Source: an uncultured bacterium (lineage in GTDB: Bacteria; Verrucomicrobiota; Lentisphaeria; Victivallales; UBA1829). From it: DNA of 64,000 nt. The notes under the pieces are model-generated. The model had not been told where the DNA came from, ran no database searches, and worked only from the letters and a program-made list of their open reading frames with translations. Every line of letters begins with the position of its first letter. The first letter of the stretch is position 1. Location: positions 62,001 to 126,000 of the forward strand of contig CACZEK010000005.1 of assembly GCA_902780135.1 (NCBI GenBank), in the 5' to 3' direction. Shown in pieces: positions 8,190 through 41,544 of the stretch. The translations under genes and the position numbers were made by a program.

Positions 8190-11087
8190 TCAGATCGCGG
8201 GAACGCCACGTCCGCTCTGGTCTTCGCGGAACGGAGATCCGTCGGGCTTGATGAGGCGGCTGGTCAGGAAGATCAGGAGGTTGGTCTTCTTGGCGCCTTT
8301 GCCCTTGCCCTGGAAGAAGCGTCCGATCAGCGGGAGGTCGCCGAGGATCGGGTACTGGTCTTCGATCATGGAGAGTTCGTCGCGGATCACGCCGCCGAGG
8401 ACGACGGTTTCGCCGTCGTAGCTCATGACGTTGGTGTTCAGGTAACGCGCTTCGATGATCGGCATCTTCAGGGTGTTGGGATACAGCTCGTTGTTTTCTC
8501 CCAGCGGGATGGAGTAGGAGTAGTCGGTCCAGCCGATGAACTCCTGGATGACCGGGGTCATTTCGAGGAAGATCGTGTAGTTGTCCTCTTCCACGCGCGG
8601 ACGGACCTGCAGGGCGATGCCTTCTTCGGTGGCGCCGCCGAACTGCGGGATGGAGGGCGTGAAGACCGGCACGCTGGATCCGTTGGTGGAGACGGTTTCG
8701 AGTTCGGCCTCGTCCCAGTCGGTCGGATAGTATTTTTCCGTGACCATGCGGATGACGGCGTTCTGGTTGTTCATGGTCGTCACGCGCGGCGCGGAAAGGA
8801 TTTCCGTGGAGTCGGCGTTGTCGAGGGCGTGGATGCCGCCGGCAAACTGGTAGCCGTCCGCATTATAGGTAGCCCAGTTGAAGACGGTGTCGTTCTGGGT
8901 GCCGGTGGTGGAGCCGTAGATGCCCGCATTGGTCTGGGCGTTGCGGTTGAAGTGGCTGTTCGGGCCCCAGGTGATATGGTGGCCGTAGTTCTTCGCGGCT
9001 TCCTCCTGGAGGATGCCTTCGAAATAGCCTTCGCCCGCTTCCAGGTTGTCCGGGACGTAGTAGATGTCGCCGGCGGAAACGTTCATCGACTGCATCTCCT
9101 TCACGTTCAGCGAAGTGGCGCCGGGCGTCATCCAGGCGTTGGCGAGGGTGCTGTTGCGGGTCTCCGAACTGTTCTGGTAGTACATGATGAACGAGTGGTC
9201 GGCGACAACGCCCTCGTTGCCGGTCGGGTCAAGCGGATTGATGCCGCTGGCCTTGACTTCGTCCCACGTCGGGGCGATGCGGGAGAAGGTATAGTCGAAG
9301 GAGAGTTCCTGCAGGTCGTTCATTTCGATTTCCACGAACTTGACCTGGATCAGCACCTGCGGGTCGGAGACGTCCATCTGGTCGATGAGGTCTTCCACGC
9401 GGTCGAGCGCCTCGGAGGTGTTGAAGACCGTCAGGCGGCTGCTCATCTCGTCGTAGCGGACGGACGCGCCGGTCGGGAACGGGATGCCGCGGTCGATCAG
9501 ATACTGCTTGACGTTTTCGTTGGTCAGGTCGCCCATGATGCTGCTGGCGAGGATTTCCTTGTCGATCGGGTACGTCTTGCGGATGAACTCGTCGAGCGGG
9601 ACGTCCTTGGCGGCGATCACGACCGCATAGTTTTCAACGCGGAAATGAAGGTTGGCGGACTTGCAGATGAAACGGATGGCGTCGATCAGGGTGACATTGT
9701 CGACGGCAAGCGTGACCATGGTGTTTTCGGCGGTCTGCGTGGGACCGCTGCCCGCTCCGGACTCGCCGGTGGGATCGTCGTAGGAATAGAAGTCGTCGCC
9801 GGACTCGCCGAAATCATCGGCGGGCTCTTCGGACCCCTCGTCTTCGAACGATTCCTCGTCCTCGTCGCCGAATTCGTCGATGTCGTCGATATTGGACGGA
9901 GTGGAGGGCCTGGCGTCGTCCGTGTTGAAACGGAGCACGAAGTTGACGCCGACGCGGTCCGGGTCCTTGTCCTTGCTGGTGTGCTTCAGGAACTGCACGA
10001 CCTGCGCGATGGGGACATCTTCGAAATCGATCTTGTCGAGGAGGATGTCGTTGAGTTTCTTCTGCGTGGTGCCGGCGTTGTCTTCCTTGATTCTGATGTC
10101 TTCGGTCACGACGTCGTCGGAGGTTTCGGAGCCGGTCGGAATCGGGGCGATCATCTTCCACATCGCCTCGGCGGCGCGCTCCAGCACCACGGCGCCTCTG
10201 CGGCGCTGTCCGACCTCGGACTCGTGGATGTAGATGCGGCGGAGATAGTCGATCGCCGTGATGTTGTACGGGTCGAGGATCATGACCTGGTTGAACTTCT
10301 CCTGCGCCCGGTTCCACTGCTTGGTGTTGTAGAGCGTCTGGCCCTGGCGGATCAGGAGGGAGATGCGCTTCTCGCGGTTCTTCGCCTCGGGGACGAGTTC
10401 CTCCGAGGAGGTGTCCTTCTTGTACTGCGCGGAAGCCTTCATGATCGTGTATTCGTCGATGGTCCTGCGCATAAGGGGTTCCGAGAGAGGATAGACCTTG
10501 ATGGCTTCCTCGCATTTTTCGATGGCTTCGTCGTAGAGGCCGATCTGGGCGGTCTTTTCCGCCTCGCCGAAGATCTTCTGCGCCCAGAAATAGTAGGACT
10601 GCGAGATCATGTTCTTGACCTCGGCGATCTTCCGCTTGTTGGCCTCGGGGACTTCGCCGTTGACGACGTCTTCCTCAAGGAGCTTGAGGACGTCGACATA
10701 GGTGTCGACCGCCACGTCGTAGTCTTCGTGCTGGAACGCGGAGTTCGCCTTCTTCTGGAGTTCGTCCGCATTGCGCTGCATCGCCTGGCGGGCGATCAGC
10801 TCTTCGATGGAAGCGGACGTCTGCTCGCGGAGGAGTTCCTTCTCGGTCTCCGTAAGCTCGGCCTCGGGCTGGGCTTCGGCGCCGTCCGCGGCGGCTTCGG
10901 CCTCGGCCGGGGCTTCGGCCGTCTCGACGACAGGCGTTTCTTCCTCAGCGGCGATGTCGATGTCCTCGACTTCCTGCGCGAATGCGGCAGGAATCGAGAA
11001 GGCAAGCGCCAGAAGGATGGCGGAATAGCGGGGGAAAGCGTGCATGGGAGCCTCCATGAAATATGTCATATCTTTAATCTTTTTCAT
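8190..11087 (-). CDS. Secretin-family outer-membrane protein (second paralogue)
   Basis: This 965-residue protein has a signal peptide (cleavage near AFAQE, residue 38), an Ala/Glu-rich linker, TPR-like helices (about 100-300), and a small domain shared with the neighbouring secretin (DKIDFEDVPIAQVVQFLKHT, about 345). That domain is split by a very acidic insert of about 50 residues (about 390-440). The secretin core runs from about 560 to 945 and carries the family end signature GDLPLIGRFFQ followed by NLLIFLTSRLI. Secretins form outer-membrane gates of pilus and type II systems. Start 11087 has AAGGAG that overlaps the upstream stop; an alternative ATG at 11045, also behind GGAGG, gives a more usual signal-peptide length. 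It is 12 bp behind a paralogous secretin gene. Confidence 0.9.
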   Translation of the reverse strand: MKKIKDMTYFMEAPMHAFPRYSAILLALAFSIPAAFAQEVEDIDIAAEEETPVVETAEAPAEAEAAADGAEAQPEAELTETEKELLREQTSASIEELIARQAMQRNADELQKKANSAFQHEDYDVAVDTYVDVLKLLEEDVVNGEVPEANKRKIAEVKNMISQSYYFWAQKIFGEAEKTAQIGLYDEAIEKCEEAIKVYPLSEPLMRRTIDEYTIMKASAQYKKDTSSEELVPEAKNREKRISLLIRQGQTLYNTKQWNRAQEKFNQVMILDPYNITAIDYLRRIYIHESEVGQRRRGAVVLERAAEAMWKMIAPIPTGSETSDDVVTEDIRIKEDNAGTTQKKLNDILLDKIDFEDVPIAQVVQFLKHTSKDKDPDRVGVNFVLRFNTDDARPSTPSNIDDIDEFGDEDEESFEDEGSEEPADDFGESGDDFYSYDDPTGESGAGSGPTQTAENTMVTLAVDNVTLIDAIRFICKSANLHFRVENYAVVIAAKDVPLDEFIRKTYPIDKEILASSIMGDLTNENVKQYLIDRGIPFPTGASVRYDEMSSRLTVFNTSEALDRVEDLIDQMDVSDPQVLIQVKFVEIEMNDLQELSFDYTFSRIAPTWDEVKASGINPLDPTGNEGVVADHSFIMYYQNSSETRNSTLANAWMTPGATSLNVKEMQSMNVSAGDIYYVPDNLEAGEGYFEGILQEEAAKNYGHHITWGPNSHFNRNAQTNAGIYGSTTGTQNDTVFNWATYNADGYQFAGGIHALDNADSTEILSAPRVTTMNNQNAVIRMVTEKYYPTDWDEAELETVSTNGSSVPVFTPSIPQFGGATEEGIALQVRPRVEEDNYTIFLEMTPVIQEFIGWTDYSYSIPLGENNELYPNTLKMPIIEARYLNTNVMSYDGETVVLGGVIRDELSMIEDQYPILGDLPLIGRFFQGKGKGAKKTNLLIFLTSRLIKPDGSPFREDQSGRGVPAI

Positions 11088-11099
11088 TTCAGCTGCTCC

Positions 11100-13742
11100 T
11101 TACCGTCTGAAGTCCGGGAGACCGTTTTGCGTGTTGGTTCGGACCGGGATACCGTCACCGCTGATGAGTCGCGTCGAAACAGAGATGATCAGGTTGTCCT
11201 TGTGAGACTCGGAGGCGGACTCGGTGAACAGGCGGCCGATGAGCGGGATGTCCGCGAAGATGGGCCATCTGTCGCTGAGGGCGCCGTGGGTGTCGCTGAG
11301 GATGCCGCCGATGACCACGGTCTGTCCGTCGTAGACCTTGATCGTCGTCTGGACTTCACGGTTGGAGATCTCCGGCATCTTGAGCGTCATGGGATACTCT
11401 TCGCCGGATGCGAACTCGCCGATCACGTAGTTGTAGCTGTAGTCGGACCAGCCGGTGAGGTCGGTGACCGAAGGATTCAGCTCCAGGCGGATCGTGTAGT
11501 TGTTGGGCTGGAGGGTCGGGGTGACGGTCAGGCTGGTGCCGATGTCGCGCGGCGAACCGAATTCCGGATAGGACGGCTCGAACGTGACGCTGGAACCGCA
11601 GCTGGTGGAGATTTCAGGCTCGGTCCAGCTTTCCGGGAAGTACATCTGGCGGACCATCTGCACCTGCGCCTGGCGGCCGGAAACGGTCACGACTTTCGGC
11701 GTGGAGAGGATTTCCGAACGGTCGGTGCGGTCGATCGCGTTGATCGTGAGGAAGAGGCTCCAGCTGCCGCCCGGGCCGAAGTTCGGGATCAGGTTCAGGT
11801 TGTTCACGAGCGTGTTGTCGGACCAGCCGGATCCGATGGACGGGGAGGTGAACGAGAACGTGAAATGATCCTCCGGGTCGCCGGTATGGGTCAGGGTCCA
11901 GTCGAAGCCGAGTTCTTCCAGGTCGCTCATCTTGATCTCGACCATCTTGGACTCGATGAGGATCAGCGGATCCTGCATGTCCATGTCGCGGATGGCGAAC
12001 TCGAGCTGGCGGATGTTTTCGGGGGTGTTGACGACCGTGAGCTTGTTTGCGCGGGCGTCGTAGGCGATGGAGGAACCTTCCTCGAACGGGATGCCGCTCT
12101 CGGCGAAGTAGGTGCGGAGCGTTTCCGGCGCGATGGAGGTGACGCGCTGGCTGTCGGGATCGGATTCGCCGGGACTCAGCGTGATGAGTCCGCCGACCGT
12201 CTCGCCCGCGCCGAGCGTATCTTCCTGCGTGATGCCGTCGCCGATGCCTTCGGCGCGCATGTTGCCGACGATGCGCAGGATGGTGGCCTGGCGGATCGGG
12301 ATGTAGCGCGTGATCATGTCGCTGACGTCGGAGCCGGACCCGATCGTGATGATCTTGTCCGTTTCGTCGATGCGGAAGGAAAGGCCGGTGATCTTGCAGA
12401 TGTAGCGGATGACTTCATACAGCGGGATCTGGTCGAGATTGAGCGTGACGAGCTTGTTCGCGTATTTTTCGGCCTGCGGGACGATGATGTTGAAGCCTTC
12501 GCCGTTCGGATCCAGTTCCTTGCTGCGGGCGCGGAGCTGCAGGATCACGGAGGGAAGTTCGACGTCCTCGAATTCGATATGGTCGATCATCAGTTCGTTG
12601 AGGCGGTTGTAAAGCTCGTTGCCGGCGGATTCGTAGGTTTCGGCGCCGCCGGTGATCACGATGTTGCGGACGTCGGGGATGCTCTCCACCCAGCTCCAGT
12701 CGGACTTTGCCTGTTCGAGAAGGAACTCGTTGTAGGCGCGGACGTCGGCGATCGCGTAAAGCCTGCGGTAGATCTTTTCCAGCAGCGTGATGGCGTCTTC
12801 GTTGTAGGGATCCTTCACCAGGATCTGCTCCATTTTGTCGCGCGCTTCGTCCCAGGCGTCGTTCTGATAGAGGAACTGGCCGGCGCGGAACAGCAGGTGG
12901 ATCTCGCGCTGGCGTTCATCGTAGCGCGGATCGACGGCGTCCAGGCTGGTCTCGTTCCAGTAGTTCTGGCTGTCGATGCGTTCCTGCGTCGATTTCCTCA
13001 TGGATTCGACGGTGGCGGCGAACTGGTTTTCCTTCACGGGATCCTTGGCGATGGCGATCTGGAGCTCAGCGTTGTCATAGGCTTCGCCGGGGAGGATGCC
13101 GAGATAGTAAACGACTTCGGCGTAGGTGAGATTCCGGAGAAGATTCGAACCGAGTTCGAGGATTTCGTCGTCGTGGTGCAGCAGAAGGAGCTTGTTGAAA
13201 TCCCTCTCGCAGTCCTCCAGGAGCTTGTTGCCGAAGAGGATCTGGGCTTTTTTGCGTTCGGCGGCGAGACGTCCGGCAAACGCGTCCTTGGCGGGAGAAA
13301 CCTCGCATTTGTCAAGCACGTTTTTTGCCTCGTCGAAAAGCGCGAACGCCTCCGTGAACTCCTTTTCAGCCGTGCGGGTCCTGGCCTGCGAAAGATACTC
13401 GTTGAACAGAGCTTCGTTTTCAATCAGGTCCGCTTCCGCCGCGGTCGTAAGCTCCAGCTCGTCGCCGGTAAGCACGGGTTCCTCTTCGGCGTCAACGTCG
13501 GCGTCGGCAACCTCTTCCTCGGCCGGTTCGGCCTCGGCGGTTTCCTCGTCGGCGGATCCGGCGGCAGGTTCTTCGGCGTCGGAATCAGCCGCCGCCGCGG
13601 TTTCCGTTACCGCCGCATCGGCATCCTGCGCCGCATCCTCGTCCTGAGCGGAAAGCATCATGGACGTCACGCCGAACGCAAGAGCGAACACGGCGGCCGG
13701 CCGGAGGATCGGGCGAAGAAAACAATGGGGTCTCATCTTCAT
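11100..13742 (-). CDS. Secretin-family protein, Amuc_1098-like
   Basis: The 880-residue protein has an N-terminal signal region, a long Ala/Glu/Asp-rich stretch (about 30-100), helical TPR-like repeats, and the shared small domain (HIEFEDVELPSVILQLRARS, then VTLNLDQIPLYEVIRYICK). A ring-forming N-domain follows (IPFEEGSSIAYDARANKLTV) and the secretin core ends FADIPLIGRLFTE. Its place, last but one in an operon ordered like Amuc_1102-1098, makes it the positional match of Amuc_1098, the PilQ-like secretin of Akkermansia. It shares overall layout with the next gene but lacks that protein's acidic insert. It is 64 bp behind the Amuc_1099-like gene, with a possible internal promoter in the gap. 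Confidence 0.9.
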   Translation of the reverse strand: MKMRPHCFLRPILRPAAVFALAFGVTSMMLSAQDEDAAQDADAAVTETAAAADSDAEEPAAGSADEETAEAEPAEEEVADADVDAEEEPVLTGDELELTTAAEADLIENEALFNEYLSQARTRTAEKEFTEAFALFDEAKNVLDKCEVSPAKDAFAGRLAAERKKAQILFGNKLLEDCERDFNKLLLLHHDDEILELGSNLLRNLTYAEVVYYLGILPGEAYDNAELQIAIAKDPVKENQFAATVESMRKSTQERIDSQNYWNETSLDAVDPRYDERQREIHLLFRAGQFLYQNDAWDEARDKMEQILVKDPYNEDAITLLEKIYRRLYAIADVRAYNEFLLEQAKSDWSWVESIPDVRNIVITGGAETYESAGNELYNRLNELMIDHIEFEDVELPSVILQLRARSKELDPNGEGFNIIVPQAEKYANKLVTLNLDQIPLYEVIRYICKITGLSFRIDETDKIITIGSGSDVSDMITRYIPIRQATILRIVGNMRAEGIGDGITQEDTLGAGETVGGLITLSPGESDPDSQRVTSIAPETLRTYFAESGIPFEEGSSIAYDARANKLTVVNTPENIRQLEFAIRDMDMQDPLILIESKMVEIKMSDLEELGFDWTLTHTGDPEDHFTFSFTSPSIGSGWSDNTLVNNLNLIPNFGPGGSWSLFLTINAIDRTDRSEILSTPKVVTVSGRQAQVQMVRQMYFPESWTEPEISTSCGSSVTFEPSYPEFGSPRDIGTSLTVTPTLQPNNYTIRLELNPSVTDLTGWSDYSYNYVIGEFASGEEYPMTLKMPEISNREVQTTIKVYDGQTVVIGGILSDTHGALSDRWPIFADIPLIGRLFTESASESHKDNLIISVSTRLISGDGIPVRTNTQNGLPDFRR

Positions 13743-13806: not shown

Positions 13807-14994
13807 TTATTGTCTCTGGAGGAACGGAGAGCTGTTGTCCTTCGAATTCGTGCCGGAAGAGGCCGGGGTCTTTCCGGCGTCCGAAGCGGAGGAGGAGACA
13901 TCCTTCGGCACGGGCAGGAGCTTGAAGGATTCACCGAGCGTGCCGTCCGTGTTGACGGTCTCCACGATGACTTCCTTCGTGGACGGATCCGCGGAGGAAA
14001 CGCGGTACACTTCTTTTCCGGTCTTGTCCGTGCCGAGCGTGAAGTCGGCGCCGACCGAAGAGGTGAACGTGCGGTCGTAGAGGGCGTTGAGGAATCTCAC
14101 GCGGGGCGAGGGATCGTAGACGGTCTGCTTGGGACGGCAGGGGATGCGTTCGATCTTGCCGACGCGCTGGATGTAGACGATCGGCTCCTGCGTCTTGTCG
14201 TCGACCTCGATGTCGACCGCGCTGAAGCTGACGTTGTTGTGCGTGAACGTGCTGCCGCTGATCTGAACGAACGCGGATCTCTTGTTGCCGTTGCGGACCA
14301 CGCTGAAGGTGGCCTGCCAGTCCTTCTTGTCGGCCTTGGTCATGTCGACGGAGACCAGTTCCAGCCCGGTGAAACGCGTGCGGCTGACGGCGGAAACGTA
14401 GACCTGGGTAAGATACTTCGGATGGCTGAGCGGATCGGTGGGATCGGTCTTTGCCTTGTATTCCTGCATCAGGCTGAACCCGTCGGAATCCTGGTCCGAA
14501 TCCGCGCCGGAGTTCTCAAGCGCGATGCTGTATTCCTTCTCCCAGTCGTCCGGGATGCCGTTGTTGTTCAGGTCGGCCTTGCCGAGCAGGTCGTCCTCGT
14601 TCTTCACGCGGGGTGCGAGGGCATGGCCGCAGGCGGGGCACTTGCCGTTCTTCGTTTCGCCGACCGCCGGATAGGCGTTGGCGGGGATGAGGGAATGGCA
14701 GAAGACGCATTCGGCGAGGGGATACGGGGACATCAGCTGGGTTTTCGTCGGGGACGGCTCGTCCGTTTCGACCTTGTTCCATTCGGAGAAGATGTTTTCC
14801 GTCCGGTACGCCGGCTTCGTGAAATCAATGGATTCGTAATCGGATGCGATCTGCTTCTGGGTGACCTTCGTGTCGACTTCCTGGTTCTGCGCCTTCTGGA
14901 TGAACAGAAGCTGATAGTAAAGCAAAGCCGTGAAAATGATAAGCAGGGCCGCTAAAATGATTTTTTCGTAATGCGCAAGAAGAAAATTTTTCAT
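13807..14994 (-). CDS. Amuc_1099-like pilus-locus protein with Cys pairs and Asp-rich loops
   Basis: This 395-residue protein has a single N-terminal membrane anchor (residues 11-31), so the rest probably faces the periplasm. Two CxxC pairs (C96/C99 and C119/C122) look like a zinc ribbon. Next come two Asp/Asn-rich loops, DLNNNGIPDD (141-150) and DSDQDSDGFS (165-174), of the thrombospondin type 3 calcium-binding kind. The remainder is beta-rich without recognised catalysis. It lies between the Amuc_1100-like and the secretin genes, the position of Amuc_1099. A scaffold role between inner membrane and secretin is inference from position and topology only. Confidence 0.75.
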   Translation of the reverse strand: MKNFLLAHYEKIILAALLIIFTALLYYQLLFIQKAQNQEVDTKVTQKQIASDYESIDFTKPAYRTENIFSEWNKVETDEPSPTKTQLMSPYPLAECVFCHSLIPANAYPAVGETKNGKCPACGHALAPRVKNEDDLLGKADLNNNGIPDDWEKEYSIALENSGADSDQDSDGFSLMQEYKAKTDPTDPLSHPKYLTQVYVSAVSRTRFTGLELVSVDMTKADKKDWQATFSVVRNGNKRSAFVQISGSTFTHNNVSFSAVDIEVDDKTQEPIVYIQRVGKIERIPCRPKQTVYDPSPRVRFLNALYDRTFTSSVGADFTLGTDKTGKEVYRVSSADPSTKEVIVETVNTDGTLGESFKLLPVPKDVSSSASDAGKTPASSGTNSKDNSSPFLQRQ

Positions 14995-15009: not shown

Positions 15010-16596
15010 TCATTGGGGGGTAATGTTACCGGCACGATAGAACAGATAATTCACCACGATCGTGCATTTGATCTCGTCCCGCGTTTCGCCGATCAGCGTC
15101 TGGCCGTATTCGGGATTGCGGGGATCGTCAAAGTCGTAGACGACGCGCGTTGCGGACGCGGTCTGGACCGCGGGCGTGTCGGCGGGCTGGATCGCCTGCG
15201 GGTCCGCGTTTTCGCCGGCGGCGCCGGCTGCCGGCGTCGTCGTGCGGCGGGCGTCGGGTTTTTGCTTTTCCGTGTGGTACGCGACCTGCGAGTTGGCGTT
15301 GATCATGTCCTCGTAGGGAGCGGACAGCTTGATGTCCTTGATCTCGTACACGCGGTCGGTCTTGTACGCGCCGTGGAGGGAATTGATGAACGCGTCGATC
15401 GCATCCATGGAAGCCGTCATCTCCAGCGTATAGGTGAAGACGAGGATCGGGCCTTCGGCGTCGTTGTCCATGGTGGTGCCGTAGAACGCGCCGACGTTCA
15501 TGGAGCGGAGAGACGTCATGCCGGCATCCTTCATCCTGCGGAAGAGGTCTTCCTTGATCTGGAAGTTGCGGAGGATCGGGATGACCATGTCGGGCACGGG
15601 GAGCGCCTGGCGGTTGAGATTGCCGTAAATGAAATTCTGGACGCGTCTTTCCTTTTCAAGGGAATCGTCGGAGGGAAGGCCGGGGATAATATCCGCGTTC
15701 AGGTATTTTTCATAAAGGAAGTCGATGTAGTTCTTGCAGTCGCGCTGACGCATCAGGCGCGGGAGTCCGAGCGCATCCAGGAAGAGCTCGTGCGCCACTC
15801 TGTCGGTCACGTCTTCCAGCGTGAGCTCCTGGACCTCCTCGCGGAAGATGGCGAACGCCTTCGCGAATTTCGCTGCGGCGGCCTTGCGGAAATCCTCCGC
15901 GCGGGCGGCATTGACCGCTTCCGGAGCCTCGATGATCTGCTCGAACAGCTTCTCGAACAGCTGGGCGCGTTCGCTCTGGATCGTGTCGGGGATCATGAAC
16001 GTGTCGCTGTCGTCGGAGGAGGGCTCCTGATGAATGTCCTTATAGAGATCGGCGAGCATGGTGCGAAGCGTATCCTCGTCGAAGGAAAGGATCACGAGGT
16101 CCTTCGCGGGATTGAACACCGCTTTTTCCTCATCGGTCGGTTCGGAAGGCTCGGCGGGCCTGGCCTCCGCGACTTCCTCTTCCTCGGCGTCCTCGTCGTC
16201 GTCCGGTTCGGTCGCCTCGACTTTCGGTTTCGGCTTGGCGACCAGGGAGGGATCGAGCGCCAGCTCGGTTTCCAGCGCGGCGGGGGAAGCGATGTTCTTG
16301 AGGAGCTTGAGGAGAGCGGGACGGTAGGGCTTGCCGAAGTGGCGGTAGATCTGGTCGGTCTTCTTGGTCATGGACTCGGTATCCGCCTTGATCTTCGTTT
16401 CGCTTTCCGCGACGCTGTTGGGCTTGCGGGCGGAATCAATGGATTCGAGCTTCTGGACGTCCGCTTCGATGTCGTTCATGGACTGGTCGATCGTCCGTCT
16501 CTTGCCCTCGCAGAGGACCATAAGGACAATGCTGCCGACAAGCGTAACGGCCAGGATGGCGACGAGGACAATATTTTTCAGGATAAACTGTTTCAT
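15010..16596 (-). CDS. Amuc_1100-like (PilO-like) inner-membrane protein
   Basis: The start at 16596 overlaps the PilM stop as ATGA, giving 528 residues. A membrane anchor (about 8-28, IVLVAILAVTLVGSIVLMVL) is followed by a coiled coil (about 32-75), a long acidic/helical middle section, and a C-terminal alpha/beta part (about 400-500) of the kind seen in PilO-type proteins. Amuc_1100 of Akkermansia, which sits in the same place after the PilM gene, is shorter (about 317 residues), so this homologue carries a large middle insert. A frame extending upstream to 16740 is open but lies inside pilM and is unlikely to be used. The role would be an inner-membrane alignment component; the assignment is by synteny and layout. 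Confidence 0.78.
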   Translation of the reverse strand: MKQFILKNIVLVAILAVTLVGSIVLMVLCEGKRRTIDQSMNDIEADVQKLESIDSARKPNSVAESETKIKADTESMTKKTDQIYRHFGKPYRPALLKLLKNIASPAALETELALDPSLVAKPKPKVEATEPDDDEDAEEEEVAEARPAEPSEPTDEEKAVFNPAKDLVILSFDEDTLRTMLADLYKDIHQEPSSDDSDTFMIPDTIQSERAQLFEKLFEQIIEAPEAVNAARAEDFRKAAAAKFAKAFAIFREEVQELTLEDVTDRVAHELFLDALGLPRLMRQRDCKNYIDFLYEKYLNADIIPGLPSDDSLEKERRVQNFIYGNLNRQALPVPDMVIPILRNFQIKEDLFRRMKDAGMTSLRSMNVGAFYGTTMDNDAEGPILVFTYTLEMTASMDAIDAFINSLHGAYKTDRVYEIKDIKLSAPYEDMINANSQVAYHTEKQKPDARRTTTPAAGAAGENADPQAIQPADTPAVQTASATRVVYDFDDPRNPEYGQTLIGETRDEIKCTIVVNYLFYRAGNITPQ

Positions 16597-18506
16597 TCTT
16601 CTTCCTCCTCTTCCTCGTTCTCCGCATCGGCGGCGACAGGCGAGAACTTTTTCGCGAGTTCCTTTTCCATTTCGGGCGAATCGATGGGCTCCTTCAGTTC
16701 GACGGAGAGAAGGAATTTGCCGATGGAAAGATGGTCGCACACGTCGTGGCCATCGTCATACACGATCTTGATGTCGTTGTCGCCCGCCTTGAAGATGTTC
16801 CTGTACTCGCTGTTCATCTTCGAGGTGATGTTGTTGATGGCGGCGCTTCTGTCGTTGGTGATCGTCGTGTTGTCCTTGTTCTCGCAAATGACATAGACCA
16901 CCATATTGACCCAGCGCAGGGAGCCGTCGCCGGCATCCGCGGCGCTGTCCTGCTGCTGATTGTTGTTGTTGTCCTCCGGCATATCCATCGAAAGCTGGCC
17001 GCCGGTCCGGGCATTTTCCGGCCCGTTCGCGTTCGCGGCGTTGGTCGCGTTCCTGATCTGCTGGCTCGGCGCGCTGGAAATGGAGAAATCCGTGAGCCAG
17101 ACGTTGTCCGGGATGCAGGTCTTGATGAGCGAATAGAACGCGATCATGTTGTTGCGCTTCTTCAGAAGATCGACCGCGTCGTTGAACGCGCCGTTCGCCG
17201 TGGAGAGCTTGCTGTTGGCGTCCTTCACGCGCCGCTGGATCGCTTCGCGCTGGGCGACGTAGGCGCTGAACTCGTCGCGCTTGCCCCCGATGTTTTCCTC
17301 CTGCTGCGACATGGTCCAGAGCGTGATGCCGAAGAAGAGCAGCACGACGACCGCCGATGCAAAGAAGAACGGGCGCTTCGAACGGAATTCGTTCTGTTTG
17401 CGGACGTAATCCGGGATCAGGGAGATCTCGACGGGAGACGTGCCGATGCGGCGGAGCGCCAGGCCGATCGTCTCGGCGTACAGGTGCGCGACCTCGGAAA
17501 GGACCTGCTGGTCGACCGCGGGGCCGATGCCGACGACCTGGAACGGGTTCAGGTATTCCACCGGGATCCGGAGTTTTTCCGAGAAGAACCGCGGGGTGTA
17601 CGGCAGGATGGAGGTGCCGCCGGCGAGGAAGAGCTTTTCCGGCTTGCGGCCTTTCTGCGTGGCGCGGTAGACGTTGATGGAACGGTTGATCTCGCCGTGG
17701 AGGCGGGTCATGACGTTGCGGACGATCTTGGAGACCGCGGAAGCGACTTCGGAGTCGGCTTCCTCGTACGCGCCGCCGAGGGAGACATAGCCGTGTTTGC
17801 GCTTCATCTCCTCCGCGTCCGCGTAGGAGATGTTGAATTCCTTGGCGATCTGCTGCGTGATGGTGTCGCCCGCGATCGGAATGGTGCGGACGAAGAAACG
17901 GGAGCCGTCGATGAAAACGAGCGTGGAGCAGCGTCCGCCGATGTCGAGGATCATCTGGCAGTCCGTGGCGCCGACGTTGTTCGCACGCGCGCTGTTATAG
18001 CAGGAAGTGCCGGCGACTTCGATGAGGGCGATGCGCTTGCCGAGCTTTTCGACGAGCTCGGAGATGCGGGAGACTTCCTGCTTCTTCACGATGACGATCA
18101 TGGCGTCGATCTCGCTGCCGTCGGAATCCGCGGTGGGCGGGAGAAGCTGGGAATCCCAGACGACTTCGTCCGAAGAGAACGGGATCGCCTGCTTGGCTTC
18201 GTAGGAAATGATCTCCTGGATCTTGTCCTTGTCCGTCGTCATGGCGGGGACCTTGACGAACCGGACGAACGCGTTCTTGCCGGACAGGGAGACGTAGACG
18301 TCGCGCGCCGTGAAGCCGTTCGTCCTGATGACGTCGGTCAGGGTCTTGAGGATCACATCCTCGGGGGGCTCGTCGGAGGAGAATTCGTATTCCGTGTAGG
18401 CGAAACGCTCCAGGTTCAGGCTCTGCCCGGGAACATACGAGAATTCGGCGGCCTTGATGCTGTCGCCGCCAATGTCGATGCAGAGGATTAAGTTTTGCTG
18501 TGCCAT
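16593..18506 (-). CDS. pilM: PilM actin-like ATPase fused to a PilN-like domain
   Basis: Residues 1-350 form an actin-fold ATPase of the PilM type: phosphate 1 motif ILCIDIGGDSIKAAEF at the N-terminus, phosphate 2 MILDIGGRCSTLVFIDG, and adenosine motif LFLAGGTSILPYT. Residues about 376-398 are a membrane helix, followed by a coiled coil and a periplasmic domain, which is the layout of PilN. In most type IV pilus systems PilM and PilN are separate proteins joined by a short peptide contact; here they are one chain of 637 residues, as I recall also for Amuc_1101. The tail is very Glu-rich. The start is 3 bp after the upstream stop. It should anchor the pilus machine to the inner membrane. Confidence 0.9.
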   Translation of the reverse strand: MAQQNLILCIDIGGDSIKAAEFSYVPGQSLNLERFAYTEYEFSSDEPPEDVILKTLTDVIRTNGFTARDVYVSLSGKNAFVRFVKVPAMTTDKDKIQEIISYEAKQAIPFSSDEVVWDSQLLPPTADSDGSEIDAMIVIVKKQEVSRISELVEKLGKRIALIEVAGTSCYNSARANNVGATDCQMILDIGGRCSTLVFIDGSRFFVRTIPIAGDTITQQIAKEFNISYADAEEMKRKHGYVSLGGAYEEADSEVASAVSKIVRNVMTRLHGEINRSINVYRATQKGRKPEKLFLAGGTSILPYTPRFFSEKLRIPVEYLNPFQVVGIGPAVDQQVLSEVAHLYAETIGLALRRIGTSPVEISLIPDYVRKQNEFRSKRPFFFASAVVVLLFFGITLWTMSQQEENIGGKRDEFSAYVAQREAIQRRVKDANSKLSTANGAFNDAVDLLKKRNNMIAFYSLIKTCIPDNVWLTDFSISSAPSQQIRNATNAANANGPENARTGGQLSMDMPEDNNNNQQQDSAADAGDGSLRWVNMVVYVICENKDNTTITNDRSAAINNITSKMNSEYRNIFKAGDNDIKIVYDDGHDVCDHLSIGKFLLSVELKEPIDSPEMEKELAKKFSPVAADAENEEEEEEE

Positions 18507-36720: not shown

Positions 36721-38025
36721 TCACATATCCTGGTAGGGAGACCTGCCGGACTGGCGGGACTGGCTGTTCTGAAGAGATGCGGCGCGGCGCGCGGTCTCGG
36801 CGTCGGCCTCCGCCTTCTTCCGGGCTTCCGCCTCGTTGGCGGCGCGCTTTTTCGCGGCGGCGAGTTCGTTTTTCAGGGTTTCGTTTTTCTCCCGGAGATT
36901 CGCGACCGTGCCGGAAACGACATCAAGCTCCTCATTGAGCTTTTCGACACTCTTGGCGCGTTCGGACTGCGCGGCGAGTTCGGCGCGGAGTTTCTCGACG
37001 TCCCTGGCGCGCTCGGTCTGTACGGCGAGTTCGGCGCGGAGCCTCTGAAGCTCCTCGGTGCGGGCGGGCTCGCTGGAAACCGCCTGGTTCAGGCGTTCCT
37101 GCAGGGAGTCGATCTGCTGAAGCATCTTGAGGCGTTCGGCGGCGAACTGCTCCTTTTCGAGGGCGATCCGCGCCTCGTACTGCGCCTGCTGCGCCTCCAT
37201 CGCCGACCCGTTGGCACGTTTCATCTCCTCGATGGCGGCCTCGAACGCCGCGCGCTGGGCGGGGAGGTCGGCGCGGAGTTTCTGAAGCTCGTCGTTCATG
37301 CCGGACACGCGCCCCTCCATGCCGGACATGCTGCCGGCGAGGCCGGACATGCTGCCGGACAGACCGCTGACGTCGGCACGGAGGGCATTTTCCCGCGTTT
37401 CCGAGCCCGCGGAGAGCGCGGCGATGGCGGTCGCGGCGTCGCGGCTCGCGGCGGTGTTGTCGCGCTGGACCAGGAAGTTGACGTAGAACAGCGCCAGGAA
37501 TCCCGCCAGCACCACGATGATCATGACCGCCACGGCGAGCATCAGGCGCAGACGCCGCGCGGAGACGTCCGCCTTGCGGTTGACCGCGCTCATGGCTTCG
37601 CAGAGGTCGGAGAACTTCGTGCCGAGCAGGTCGTAAAGCGCGTCGGCGCTCTCCTGTTTCATCACGGGGTAGGTCTGCCGGTCCGGGCTGCTCTCCGCCG
37701 CTTCGGGTCCGGTCCCGTCCGCATCCGGCGCGGGTTCGGCCCCGTCCGCGCCCGGAGTTTCCGGCGGCTCCACCGTCGGATGAACGGGGAAGATGCGCTC
37801 CAGTTCGCCGTCGATGTCGCCGATGGAGCGTCCGGCGGTGCGGAGCTCGGCGACCTTGCAGAGGACGGAGAGCGTGCGGTCCGTGTAGAAACGGCGGCGC
37901 CCCTGGGTCCGGAGCTCGATGAAGCGGGCGTATTTGCCGAGCCAGTCGGTGATGGTCGTCCGCGGTACGCCGACCTGGTCGGCCAGGTCGCTGATCGAAT
38001 AAAGGCTGTGATTCTCGGGATTCAT
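36721..38025 (-). CDS. Membrane-anchored MerR-like HTH protein with long coiled coil
   Basis: The 434-residue protein combines three parts. Residues 8-75 are a MerR-type helix-turn-helix (SISDLADQVGVPRTTITDWLGKY then a GRRRFYT wing). Residues 80-120 are a Pro/Glu/Asp-rich linker. Residues 160-186 are one membrane helix (LMLAVAVMIIVVLAGFLALF), with Arg-rich flanks on the N-side. Residues about 190-430 are a long coiled coil with repeated LRAELAAQSERA-like heptads and an earlier repeated SGLAGSMSG motif. The topology places the DNA-binding part in the cytoplasm and the coil outside. The ATG overlaps the ribF stop (ATGA). The function is unknown; a membrane-bound regulator that senses the envelope is a reasonable idea. 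Confidence 0.8.
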   Translation of the reverse strand: MNPENHSLYSISDLADQVGVPRTTITDWLGKYARFIELRTQGRRRFYTDRTLSVLCKVAELRTAGRSIGDIDGELERIFPVHPTVEPPETPGADGAEPAPDADGTGPEAAESSPDRQTYPVMKQESADALYDLLGTKFSDLCEAMSAVNRKADVSARRLRLMLAVAVMIIVVLAGFLALFYVNFLVQRDNTAASRDAATAIAALSAGSETRENALRADVSGLSGSMSGLAGSMSGMEGRVSGMNDELQKLRADLPAQRAAFEAAIEEMKRANGSAMEAQQAQYEARIALEKEQFAAERLKMLQQIDSLQERLNQAVSSEPARTEELQRLRAELAVQTERARDVEKLRAELAAQSERAKSVEKLNEELDVVSGTVANLREKNETLKNELAAAKKRAANEAEARKKAEADAETARRAASLQNSQSRQSGRSPYQDM

Positions 38026-39026
38026 AAGGTTGATTCCTCCTTTTCGGAAGATTGTGCTTGTTCGTTCAATGCGGCGCGGGCGAGGCGGATGTCCTCCGGG
38101 ATGCGCGCGGCGAGCTCCTCCGGCGAACCGAATTTACGTTCGCCGCGGATGCGGGCGGCGAATCCGAGCGCCATCTCCTTTCCGTAGAGGTCGGGCGCGC
38201 CGTCCACCAGCAGATGCGCCTCCACGCGGACCTGCCCGCCGTTGCCGTAGGAATCGAACGTCGGCGCGACGCCGATGTTCACCACGGCGGGGAACCGTTC
38301 GTCTCCGACGACCGCAAAAGCCGCGTAGACGCCGTTCGCCGGGAGCATCCCGCAGCGCACGTCCAGGTTCGCAGTCGCGCAGTGCAGCGTGCTCCCCGCG
38401 ACGCCGTACCCGCCGACGACCACGCCCGAAACGGCTGGACGCCGTCCGAGGCAGCGCGCGGCGAACTCCACGTCGCCGGACGCGAGCGCCCCGCGGATCT
38501 TCGTGCTGCTCACGACGCCATGCTCATCGCGGACCTCCGGGACCGCCCGGCAGACGAATCCGAGCTCGCTTGCGCGCCGTTCCAGAAACGCGGTGTCCCC
38601 GGCTCCGCGCGCGCCGAACCGCCACATGGACCCGGCGCAGACGCCGCGGACGCGGACCGTGCCGGAGAGCAGGCAGCGGGACAGGAAGTCGTCCGGCGAA
38701 AGCGCCGCGAATTCCTTCGTGAACGGCAGGAACACGACCGCCCGGACGCCGAGCGAGGCGAGGATGCTGAGCTTGCGTTCGCGGGACATCAGGAGCGGGG
38801 GCGGATCGTCCGGCGTCAGGACGGCGCGCGGATGCGGATGAAAGGTCAGGACGGCGGGCGCCGCGTTCAGGCGGCGGCTTTCCTCCAGCATGGCGCGGAC
38901 GACCGCCACGTGGCCGCGGTGCAGGCCGTCGAAGGTCCCGACCGCGAAAACGACGTCGCGGATCCCGTGGTCCGCCAGCCCGGCGGGCGTGTCGCAGCAG
39001 ATGAGTTCAGCGGAATTCCAGTTCAT
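38022..39026 (-). CDS. ribF: Bifunctional riboflavin kinase / FAD synthetase
   Basis: RibF phosphorylates riboflavin to FMN and adenylates FMN to FAD. The N-terminal nucleotidyltransferase half has VFAVGTFDGLHRGHVAVV (HxGH-like) and SSTKIRGALASGDVEFA; the C-terminal kinase half has YGVAGSTLHCATANLDV and PAVVNIGVAPTFD. The 334 residues match the usual length (about 310). It lies 10 bp after the ankyrin/secretin-domain gene and overlaps the next gene, which indicates one transcript. Confidence 0.94.
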   Translation of the reverse strand: MNWNSAELICCDTPAGLADHGIRDVVFAVGTFDGLHRGHVAVVRAMLEESRRLNAAPAVLTFHPHPRAVLTPDDPPPLLMSRERKLSILASLGVRAVVFLPFTKEFAALSPDDFLSRCLLSGTVRVRGVCAGSMWRFGARGAGDTAFLERRASELGFVCRAVPEVRDEHGVVSSTKIRGALASGDVEFAARCLGRRPAVSGVVVGGYGVAGSTLHCATANLDVRCGMLPANGVYAAFAVVGDERFPAVVNIGVAPTFDSYGNGGQVRVEAHLLVDGAPDLYGKEMALGFAARIRGERKFGSPEELAARIPEDIRLARAALNEQAQSSEKEESTL

Positions 39027-39036
39027 AGGCGCACCG

Positions 39037-40593
39037 TCACGGTTTCTCCTTCGCGGAAGCGTTATTTTTCTGCTTGGGACGGATCACGACCTTTTTTCCC
39101 GCCTCGTCGATGTCGAATCCCACGCCGGCAAGCGCGCACATGCAATCGATCGCATCGTACAGGAATACGTTGTCGGCGGCAAAGGATACGAACAAATGAG
39201 ATTTCTTTTCGGTCTCAGGATCGACGACGATGCTGACGCCCTTCCCCTCGGGATCCGGCCGCACGCTCTTTTCCTGAAGGATCTGAACGGCATTGGCAAG
39301 GCGGACCTCGTCGAAATCAATGCTGCCGATCACCGTCTCTTTGAGCCGCTTGTACAGCGCGCCGCCGGAAGCTTTTTTCTCCGGCCGCGCCGAACTGTCC
39401 GGGAGCTGACGGGGAGATGCGGGAACGGCGCGGACGCCGGGCAGATAGGAATTCATCAGCTTCACGATTTCGGCGTTGACGCCGGACGCCGTGCCCGCGC
39501 GCGCCGCCTCAGGCGAGACCTCCGCGCCCGCTTCGAGCAGGGTTTTCACCTGGGCGGGGTCGTTGTTGGCGATCGCGAGCATCAGCGCGCTCATCTTTTT
39601 GTCGTTGGCGACGTTCGGATTGACCTTGTTCGCCATCAGGACGTCGAACAGACGGCTGTTCTTCGTTTCGAGCGCGAGGATCAGCGGATCGACCTTGCGT
39701 CCGGCGACTTCGACCGGGTCGCCGATCTTCCGGGGAGCCTCCGGCTTCGTCCCGTCCGCCTTTCCGTCTTCGGGGGCAGGCACAGCCCACGCACCGGAGC
39801 ATTCGCGCTCCAGCCGCACGGAAAGCGCGTACGGCGAATAGTTTTTCAGCTTGGAAAGGTCTTCCGCGAGAAGCGTCTGCATATACCCGCGTTCGGTCGC
39901 CTTGAGCGACTCCAGGATGTCGGCGATCATGTCGAACTTCTTCTGCACATCCGGGCATTTCTTCCTCACGAACGCCGCCGCTTCCGGCCCCTTCGTCGCC
40001 ATGTACATGAAAGTCTGCGCCATATCCATTTCCGTCGAATACATCGCGGCCTGGCTGACGAAATGCCTGTCCCATTCGCTCAGGACCGCGTCGAGCTTCT
40101 TCTTCGCCTGCGCGGACAGGCTTCCCCGGGTCCTCTCGTAGATGAAATCGTCCGGGTTGAGCTTGTTCCAGCGGCCGAGGAACGTTCGTTCCATCACGGG
40201 GACCTGCAGATAAAACAGATTCGTGTAAAACTGTTTCTCGTCCAGATCCGCATCCGCAAACAGATCGTCGCCCACCCGGTGCATCTGATACGCGTCCCCG
40301 TCGCGGTCGTACACGGTGTCCTTGAACACCACGCTCTTGAGCTTGAACCGCTTCAGGAACGCGGGATCCAGGAGGTAGAGCCGGTCGTAGAATTTCCGGG
40401 CCGCTTCCTTCAGCTGCGGTTCGGAAACGGGCGTACCGTCGGGATCGCGTCTCAGCGAACGCGTCCGGTCCGGGCGGATATGGTACAGCGCGATCTCCTG
40501 CCTGAAATCCTTTTCCAGGTCAAGGTCGGCGGCACGAAGCGCACACAGAGCCGCCATCGCCATGGCGGAGACAAATAATGTTCCGATCCTCAT
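39037..40593 (-). CDS. Periplasmic ankyrin-repeat protein with a secretin-type N-domain
   Basis: The 518-residue protein (ATG 40593 behind AGGGA) has a signal peptide (MRIGTLFVSAMAMAALCALRA), a helical N-terminal half of unknown type, two to three ankyrin-like repeats (about 290-370; KMSALMLAIANNDPAQVKTL LEAG pattern), and a C-terminal domain (about 414-511). That domain reads like the small domain found before the secretin cores at 8190-13742: IDFDEVRLANAVQILQEKS, then DAIDCMCALAGVGFDID. The protein has no secretin core itself. A frame upstream to 40647 is open but lacks a better start. It heads the operon with ribF. The function is unknown; an accessory of the secretin complex is inference from the shared domain. 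Confidence 0.78.
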   Translation of the reverse strand: MRIGTLFVSAMAMAALCALRAADLDLEKDFRQEIALYHIRPDRTRSLRRDPDGTPVSEPQLKEAARKFYDRLYLLDPAFLKRFKLKSVVFKDTVYDRDGDAYQMHRVGDDLFADADLDEKQFYTNLFYLQVPVMERTFLGRWNKLNPDDFIYERTRGSLSAQAKKKLDAVLSEWDRHFVSQAAMYSTEMDMAQTFMYMATKGPEAAAFVRKKCPDVQKKFDMIADILESLKATERGYMQTLLAEDLSKLKNYSPYALSVRLERECSGAWAVPAPEDGKADGTKPEAPRKIGDPVEVAGRKVDPLILALETKNSRLFDVLMANKVNPNVANDKKMSALMLAIANNDPAQVKTLLEAGAEVSPEAARAGTASGVNAEIVKLMNSYLPGVRAVPASPRQLPDSSARPEKKASGGALYKRLKETVIGSIDFDEVRLANAVQILQEKSVRPDPEGKGVSIVVDPETEKKSHLFVSFAADNVFLYDAIDCMCALAGVGFDIDEAGKKVVIRPKQKNNASAKEKP

Positions 40594-40830: not shown

Positions 40831-41544
40831 ATGTCATCCAAACTCCGTTATCAGCGCGTCCTCCTCAAGATCAGCGGCGAAGCCCTCAAGGGCGACAGTG
40901 AATTCGGCTACGATCCCGCCGCGGTGAATGCCGCGGTCGCACGCATCGCCGAAGCCCGCGAACTCGGCGTCCAAATCGCCCTCGTCGTCGGCGCCGGAAA
41001 CATCTGGCGCGGCGGGTCCGCCGTCGGCATGGACCGCGTGACCGCCGACCACATGGGCATGCTCGGCACCGTCATGAACGCCCTGCGCCTGAAAGACGCG
41101 TTCCGGAAGGCGGGCATCCCGGTCAACGTCCACGCCTCCGCCGACCTCCGCCCCTTCGCGCCGAGGTTCGACCGCGACGCCGCCCTCGACCAGCTCTCCC
41201 GCGGCGAGATCGTGATCTACGCGGGCGGCACCGGCTGCCCCTTCTTCACCACGGACACCACCGCCGCACTCCGCGCCCTGGAATCCGACTGCCAGGCGCT
41301 CGTGAAGGCGACCAAGGTCAACGGCATCTACACCGCCGACCCGATGAAGGACCCCGCCGCGAAGAAGTTCGACGAACTCACGTTCAAGCAGGCGATCGAA
41401 GGGCACTACAGGATCATGGACGCCGCCGCGTTCTCCCTCTGCGCGGACAACAACCTCGCGATCGTGGTCTGCAAGTTCGAAGAGCCCGGCGCGCTCGGAC
41501 GCGTCCTGACCGGCGATTTCTCCGCCGGCACGATCGTCTCCTGA
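40831..41544 (+). CDS. pyrH: UMP kinase
   Basis: PyrH phosphorylates UMP to UDP. The 237-residue amino-acid-kinase-fold protein starts RVLLKISGEALKG, has VVGAGNIWRG, DHMGMLGTVMNAL and YAGGTGCPFFTTDTTAALRA, all of the bacterial hexameric UMP kinase type. GGAG lies 6 bases before the ATG. It stands alone on the plus strand; the usual neighbours tsf and frr are not in the window. Confidence 0.97.
   Translation: MSSKLRYQRVLLKISGEALKGDSEFGYDPAAVNAAVARIAEARELGVQIALVVGAGNIWRGGSAVGMDRVTADHMGMLGTVMNALRLKDAFRKAGIPVNVHASADLRPFAPRFDRDAALDQLSRGEIVIYAGGTGCPFFTTDTTAALRALESDCQALVKATKVNGIYTADPMKDPAAKKFDELTFKQAIEGHYRIMDAAAFSLCADNNLAIVVCKFEEPGALGRVLTGDFSAGTIVS

Follow-up and report, generated by a model that had tools for sequence, protein, structure and literature searches.

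A secretin N0/STN domain as an exchangeable cassette on a predicted secreted pseudopeptidase-ankyrin protein of rumen Lentisphaeria

In a protein of rumen Lentisphaeria that is predicted to be secreted, a secretin-type N0/STN domain was found as an exchangeable cassette on a pseudopeptidase-ankyrin scaffold, which was unexpected and represents a new architecture of a known domain; no description of it was found in the open-access literature. The gene lies at 39037..40593 on the minus strand of the window, i.e., the whole 64,000-nucleotide stretch of DNA that was analyzed, and encodes 518 amino acids. Comparison of the orthologous sequences indicates that the N0 domain is an optional cassette in this gene family.

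The open reading frame is intact, with the ATG at 40593 and the stop at 39037. The protein starts with a predicted Sec-type signal peptide (MRIGTLFVSAMAMAALCALRAAD; residues 1-22, 40528..40593, minus strand), as judged from a basic start, a hydrophobic stretch, an AxA-type end and the lack of a lipobox, and the ...LHAAD at this site is conserved among the orthologues. Directly downstream is ribF (38022..39026, minus strand), and the divergent neighbor is pyrH (40831..41544, plus strand). This synteny is conserved, as the orthologues in 11 relatives occupy the same place between pyrH and ribF. Gene position did not reveal any link to the pilus cluster of the window. Also within the ribF operon, the gene at 36721-38025 (minus strand) encodes a MerR-type DNA-binding N-terminus, a stretch that probably spans the membrane and an extended coiled coil, and its predicted product is possibly a membrane-bound regulator.

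The N-terminal domain (residues ~23-270; 39784..40527, minus strand) was assigned by sequence motifs. Residues 15-223 matched L023, which is 285 aa long and comes from a sister genus (E 2.5e-10, single-sequence comparison); L023 itself passes the Pfam cut-off for Peptidase_Mx1 (PF15890; E 1.3e-7). When 137 genomes of the order were searched with a profile, 18 homologous stretches of the peptidase domain were identified outside the genus, with homologues also in another family, and HExxHxxD followed by EDRA[EC]TF is kept in all 16 of these stretches that were included in the motif alignment. The window protein reads TNLFYLQV and MDMAQTF where HExxHxxD and EDRAETF are expected. None of the 13 genomes of the genus retains the zinc motif HExxH, the ankyrin-containing forms displaying TNLFYLQV or a similar sequence. 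As the AlphaFold model was poor for this domain, its status as a pseudoenzyme rests on alignment and motifs, which indicate a catalytically dead Peptidase_Mx1-like metallopeptidase.

About three ankyrin repeats are located at residues ~301-386 (39436..39693, minus strand). Weak ankyrin repeats were the sole match in a Pfam search of the window protein (Ank_2, E 2e-5), scoring 25.5 bits against a cut-off of 27.3, whereas the orthologue L020 reaches 29.3 and thus exceeds it. The region was modelled as helical repeats with a pLDDT of ~90, and its best fold matches are ankyrin structures. The ankyrin fusion to the peptidase-like domain occurs in 12 of the 13 genomes of the genus, the most divergent one, G020, being without it. 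A low-complexity linker (residues 387-411; 39361..39435, minus strand) represents the left edge of the cassette, which is variable.

The cassette itself spans residues ~412-506 (39076..39360, minus strand). Its nearest relative in the genome is the N0 domain of secretin A (P0003; N0 at residues ~378-470, 12333..12611, minus strand), with 36% identity over 91 aa (E 5e-18). Secretin B (P0002) was matched in two pieces (35%, E 3e-7, and 36%, E 1e-4), since an acidic insert of about 60 residues interrupts its N0 domain (9615..10061, minus strand); this split match is seen genus-wide. In a library-wide search, residues 400-510 matched positions 240-359, the N0 part, of NF042912, the NCBIfam Amuc_1098 family type IV pilus outer membrane protein (E 7e-7), and the likeness to a secretin domain therefore goes beyond chance. 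Together with the match to secretin A, this rules out a fortuitous similarity. Pfam STN alone did not detect the cassette, and the window protein had no match to the secretin core (PF00263). As mostly ankyrin matches were obtained in the fold search with the full-length model, the N0 domain was modelled alone, with 39 relatives included (pLDDT 89, pTM 0.82). The model displays the beta-alpha-beta-beta-alpha-beta-beta fold, with strands and helices ordered as in N0/STN domains. Foldseek returned a FecR-type anti-sigma factor (4m0h), the Neisseria PilQ N0 domain (4ar0/4av2) and the PupR signalling domain as best matches, with XcpQ, FpvA, GspD and FecA among the further ones; E-values were modest (0.002-1), with probabilities of 1.00 for the top matches. 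In addition, a profile of 40 domains recovered the PilQ N0 domain 4ar0 in the PDB (E 9e-4). The fold matches and the sequence match to PilQ N0 thus place the domain in the N0/STN/FecR_C superfamily, and it is a genuine secretin N0/STN domain. The first-pass annotation of this DNA had noticed the pattern shared with both secretins, the missing secretin core and the position of the gene far from the secretins in a ribF operon, all of which was borne out by the significant matches to both secretins and by a distance of about 25 kb, directly upstream of ribF. Its proposed architecture of ankyrin repeats plus a secretin small domain stood as well, but the peptidase-like N-terminus and the optional status of the C-terminal domain had been missed.

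The tandem secretins A (11100..13742) and B (8190..11087), both on the minus strand, had the Amuc_1098 family as best match (5e-97, 2e-78), below its full-length cut-off of 750 bits. Upstream of them and on the same strand are genes encoding an Amuc_1099-family pilus-like protein (13807..14994; E 4e-16, above the cut-off), a weakly Amuc_1100-like pilus protein (15010..16740; E 0.003, under the cut-off) and a PilM-like protein of the Amuc_1101 family (16593..18506; E 2e-124). The cluster resembles the type IV pilus-like cluster of Akkermansia; in that bacterium, no outer-membrane protein is more abundant than the secretin of this cluster (PMC4960237). The genome of the window (G000, 2.8 Mb) contains a rich set of 13 secretin-core and 11 T2SSE-type ATPase matches, and the N0-type profile matched only the two secretins and the pseudopeptidase-ankyrin protein there. 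Likewise, the only carriers of the N0 domain among the 13 genomes of the genus are secretin A, secretin B and, in five genomes, the pseudopeptidase-ankyrin protein.

The N0 cassette is present in 5 of 12 orthologues and absent from the other seven. The short forms end in a lysine-rich tail that resembles the one following the domain in most long forms (residues 507-518 in the window protein; 39040..39075, minus strand), and this common tail identifies the N0 domain as an insertion that keeps the frame. In a phylogeny of nine neighboring genes the long forms are scattered, requiring at least four changes, and a single clade of long forms was rejected (AU p 1.8e-7). An assembly chimera was ruled out, as five separate MAGs, which represent at least three isolate series, all have the long form with synteny and, mostly, with the shared tail.

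The history of the cassette differs from that of the gene that carries it. The bodies of the five long forms share 78-86% DNA identity, whereas the cassettes share 53-59%, with the exception of the G027/G022 pair, whose cassettes are 94% identical and thereby exceed the identity of their bodies (84%). At the amino-acid level, most cassettes are 27-42% identical to each other, compared to 73-87% for the body. In the G027/G022 pair, dS is 0.13 for the cassette and 0.43 for the peptidase part, whereas in the other pairs of long forms it is ~1-2 for the cassette (near saturation) and 0.56-0.85 for the peptidase part. The neighboring genes reject a clade of G022 and G027 (AU p 0.009). Cassette GC3 is 0.54-0.58 in G021, G022 and G027, compared to 0.73-0.83 for the bodies; the secretin A N0 domains have a GC3 of 0.81-0.86. 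Identity, dS, tree conflict and GC3 thus show that movement or replacement of the cassette is uncoupled from the remainder of the gene. One cassette, that of G022/G027, has been exchanged between lineages, and cassettes generally seem to have been gained, lost and swapped between close relatives. The dN/dS of the G027/G022 cassettes is 0.31 (binomial p 0.03, with just 14 changes), a sign of purifying selection, and the cassette has therefore probably been retained for a function.

With regard to origin, the N0 tree places four of the five cassettes in one clade (97/99) next to the secretin A of the genus. The window cassette forms a long branch that groups with the secretins of another genus (93/86), a position that is unsure, and its nearest BLAST match is the secretin A of its own genome. 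A single clade of all five cassettes, and hence a single origin, was not rejected (AU p 0.22). A phage or viral source was not found by tblastn against phages or among viral contigs. At presumed surface positions, assigned by hydrophobicity and not by solvent exposure, four cassettes are more similar to secretin A (identity 0.34-0.44) than most control domains are (0.15-0.39), which could be explained by shared ancestry alone; the window cassette has 0.24, no higher than unrelated domains.

We tentatively regard the protein as a secreted adaptor that works in the periplasm without catalysis and carries an exchangeable STN module for docking, an interpretation to which we give slightly less than an even chance. 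The ancestor of the N-terminal domain would be a catalytically active zinc peptidase of the Peptidase_Mx1 type, whose metal site disappeared at the base of the genus; the ankyrin repeats would have been added to the dead peptidase to serve as a binding surface. The optional module of 90 residues, which in some species lies between the ankyrins and the C-terminal tail, would go back to the N0/STN domain of a pilus secretin of the Amuc_1098 type. Located presumably in the periplasm, the cassette may, by analogy, dock by pairing with another partner of the STN/N0 fold, as modelled by the pairing of PupB-NTSD with PupR-STN or by the N0 contacts at the secretin base, and the remainder of the protein may hold a client in the periplasm, either presenting it or keeping it sequestered, in the way that Bd3460 acts on peptidases. 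If a single partner had to be named, the type IV pilus-like assembly (Amuc_1098-1101) encoded in the same genome would be the likeliest; the protein may be its client, in an accessory or regulatory role, without taking the place of a structural component.

Alternatively, and in our view rather unlikely, the cassette could be a generic periplasmic STN interaction module, unlinked to pilus secretins, which binds another STN or signalling partner. Across the order, related N0 domains occur in secreted proteins of one or two domains (L117, L120, L118, L119, L128) and at the C-termini of M56 proteins, and out of 40 diverse members of the N0-type domain 19 match FecR_C and 11 match STN. As the domain is present in many non-secretin proteins of the order, it does not by itself point to a secretin partner. 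In addition, presence of the cassette does not track change in secretin A, as the secretin A N0 sequences of G021, which has the cassette, and of G029, which lacks it, are identical. However, within the genus the domain occurs in no other non-secretin protein, and the secretin A of the genus is the closest relative of four of the five cassettes, which argues against an unlinked module.

The carriers of N0 domains in the order are diverse. Small secreted proteins consisting only of one or two N0-like domains are encoded at L117:1223-1618, L120:2839-3249, L118:3324-4085 and L119:3414-4229, and secreted proteins with one recognized and one diverged N0-like repeat at L129:3038-3979 and L127:202-939. 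BlaR1-like M56 metallopeptidases with one or two C-terminal N0/STN domains were found at L116:885-2606, L121:2159-3712 and L125:3357-5087; in BlaR1, the C-terminus is the beta-lactam sensor, a position that is held by N0/STN domains in the M56 proteins observed here. N-domains without a secretin core also occur in L115, L124 and L132.

It appears improbable that the cassette is neutral baggage, i.e., a fragment of a secretin fused in frame by accident, whose gain or loss would matter little. The patchy presence, the fast divergence of most cassettes relative to the body and the low cassette GC3 would be in line with such a fragment, but the domain signature is retained in all five cassettes, the frame has remained open and is followed by a conserved tail, an intact module has been exchanged horizontally, and the dN/dS of the G022/G027 pair also argues against it. 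We give similarly little credence to a further possibility, that the cassette is an exchangeable mimic of the periplasmic gate domain of the pilus secretin under diversifying pressure, with client trapping and partner-driven variation. Such a mimic would bind whatever engages the secretin N0 domain, be it a pilus alignment protein, a secreted client or an invader making use of the channel, and the bound engager would be handed to, or trapped on, the dead peptidase-ankyrin scaffold; cassettes would then differ between species because the partner differs.

The first-pass proposal in its strong form, that the cassette becomes part of the secretin ring, caps it or provides an N-domain that is missing there, is very unlikely. 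In its favor, the cassette is homologous to both secretins and surface residues are partly retained in four of five cassettes. Against it, no domain is missing, with secretin A having its own N0 in all 13 genomes and seven orthologues being without the cassette, and divergence among the cassettes greatly exceeds that among the secretin N0 domains. That the protein replaces the N-domain of the secretins, which that annotation had considered, was ruled out because both secretins are intact in all 13 genomes. Docking to the rings, the other option that it had raised, may take place. No case of the protein in a genome without the secretin operon was found among the 13 genomes of the genus, a comparison that has little power because all of them carry the operon.

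A secretin N0 domain is here freed from any channel and behaves as a portable cassette ending an otherwise conserved gene, with swaps between close species. The same gene with and without the module provides a simple comparative system for N0/STN binding outside TonB transducers and secretins. Given this portable cassette and the many non-secretin N0 proteins of the order, the secretin base domain looks like a general docking module in Lentisphaeria.

Several known systems resemble parts of the protein. With the N0 domain of type IV pilus secretins (STN, PF07660; Amuc_1098 family/PilQ) the cassette shares sequence homology, fold and the S-x-x-x-D-P...G signature, but it is C-terminal instead of N-terminal, optional in its gene family, and accompanied neither by N1/N3 nor by a secretin core. 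The N-terminal domain aligns with intact members of the putative zinc metallopeptidases of Peptidase_Mx1 (PF15890) in other genera, whereas the proteins of the genus lack HExxH (13 genomes) and have added ankyrins in 12. Bd3460, a periplasmic ankyrin self-protection protein of Bdellovibrio, acts on peptidases outside the cytoplasm (PMC4686830) and is thus likewise an ankyrin-repeat protein working there; the comparison concerns the ankyrin part alone, which is weakly matched (E 0.2), and the resemblance is an analogy for function only. Finally, a C-terminal STN has been described as a new arrangement, with a structure of its complex with the signalling domain of the transducer (PupB/PupR; PMC7186176). 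Sigma regulators of this kind (PupR, FecR; FecR_C, PF16344) share the C-terminal periplasmic STN fold with the window protein, with 4m0h as the best Foldseek match. In the window protein, however, neither a FecR anti-sigma domain nor a transmembrane helix was found; it starts with a signal peptide, and its STN domain is joined to a pseudopeptidase and ankyrin repeats.
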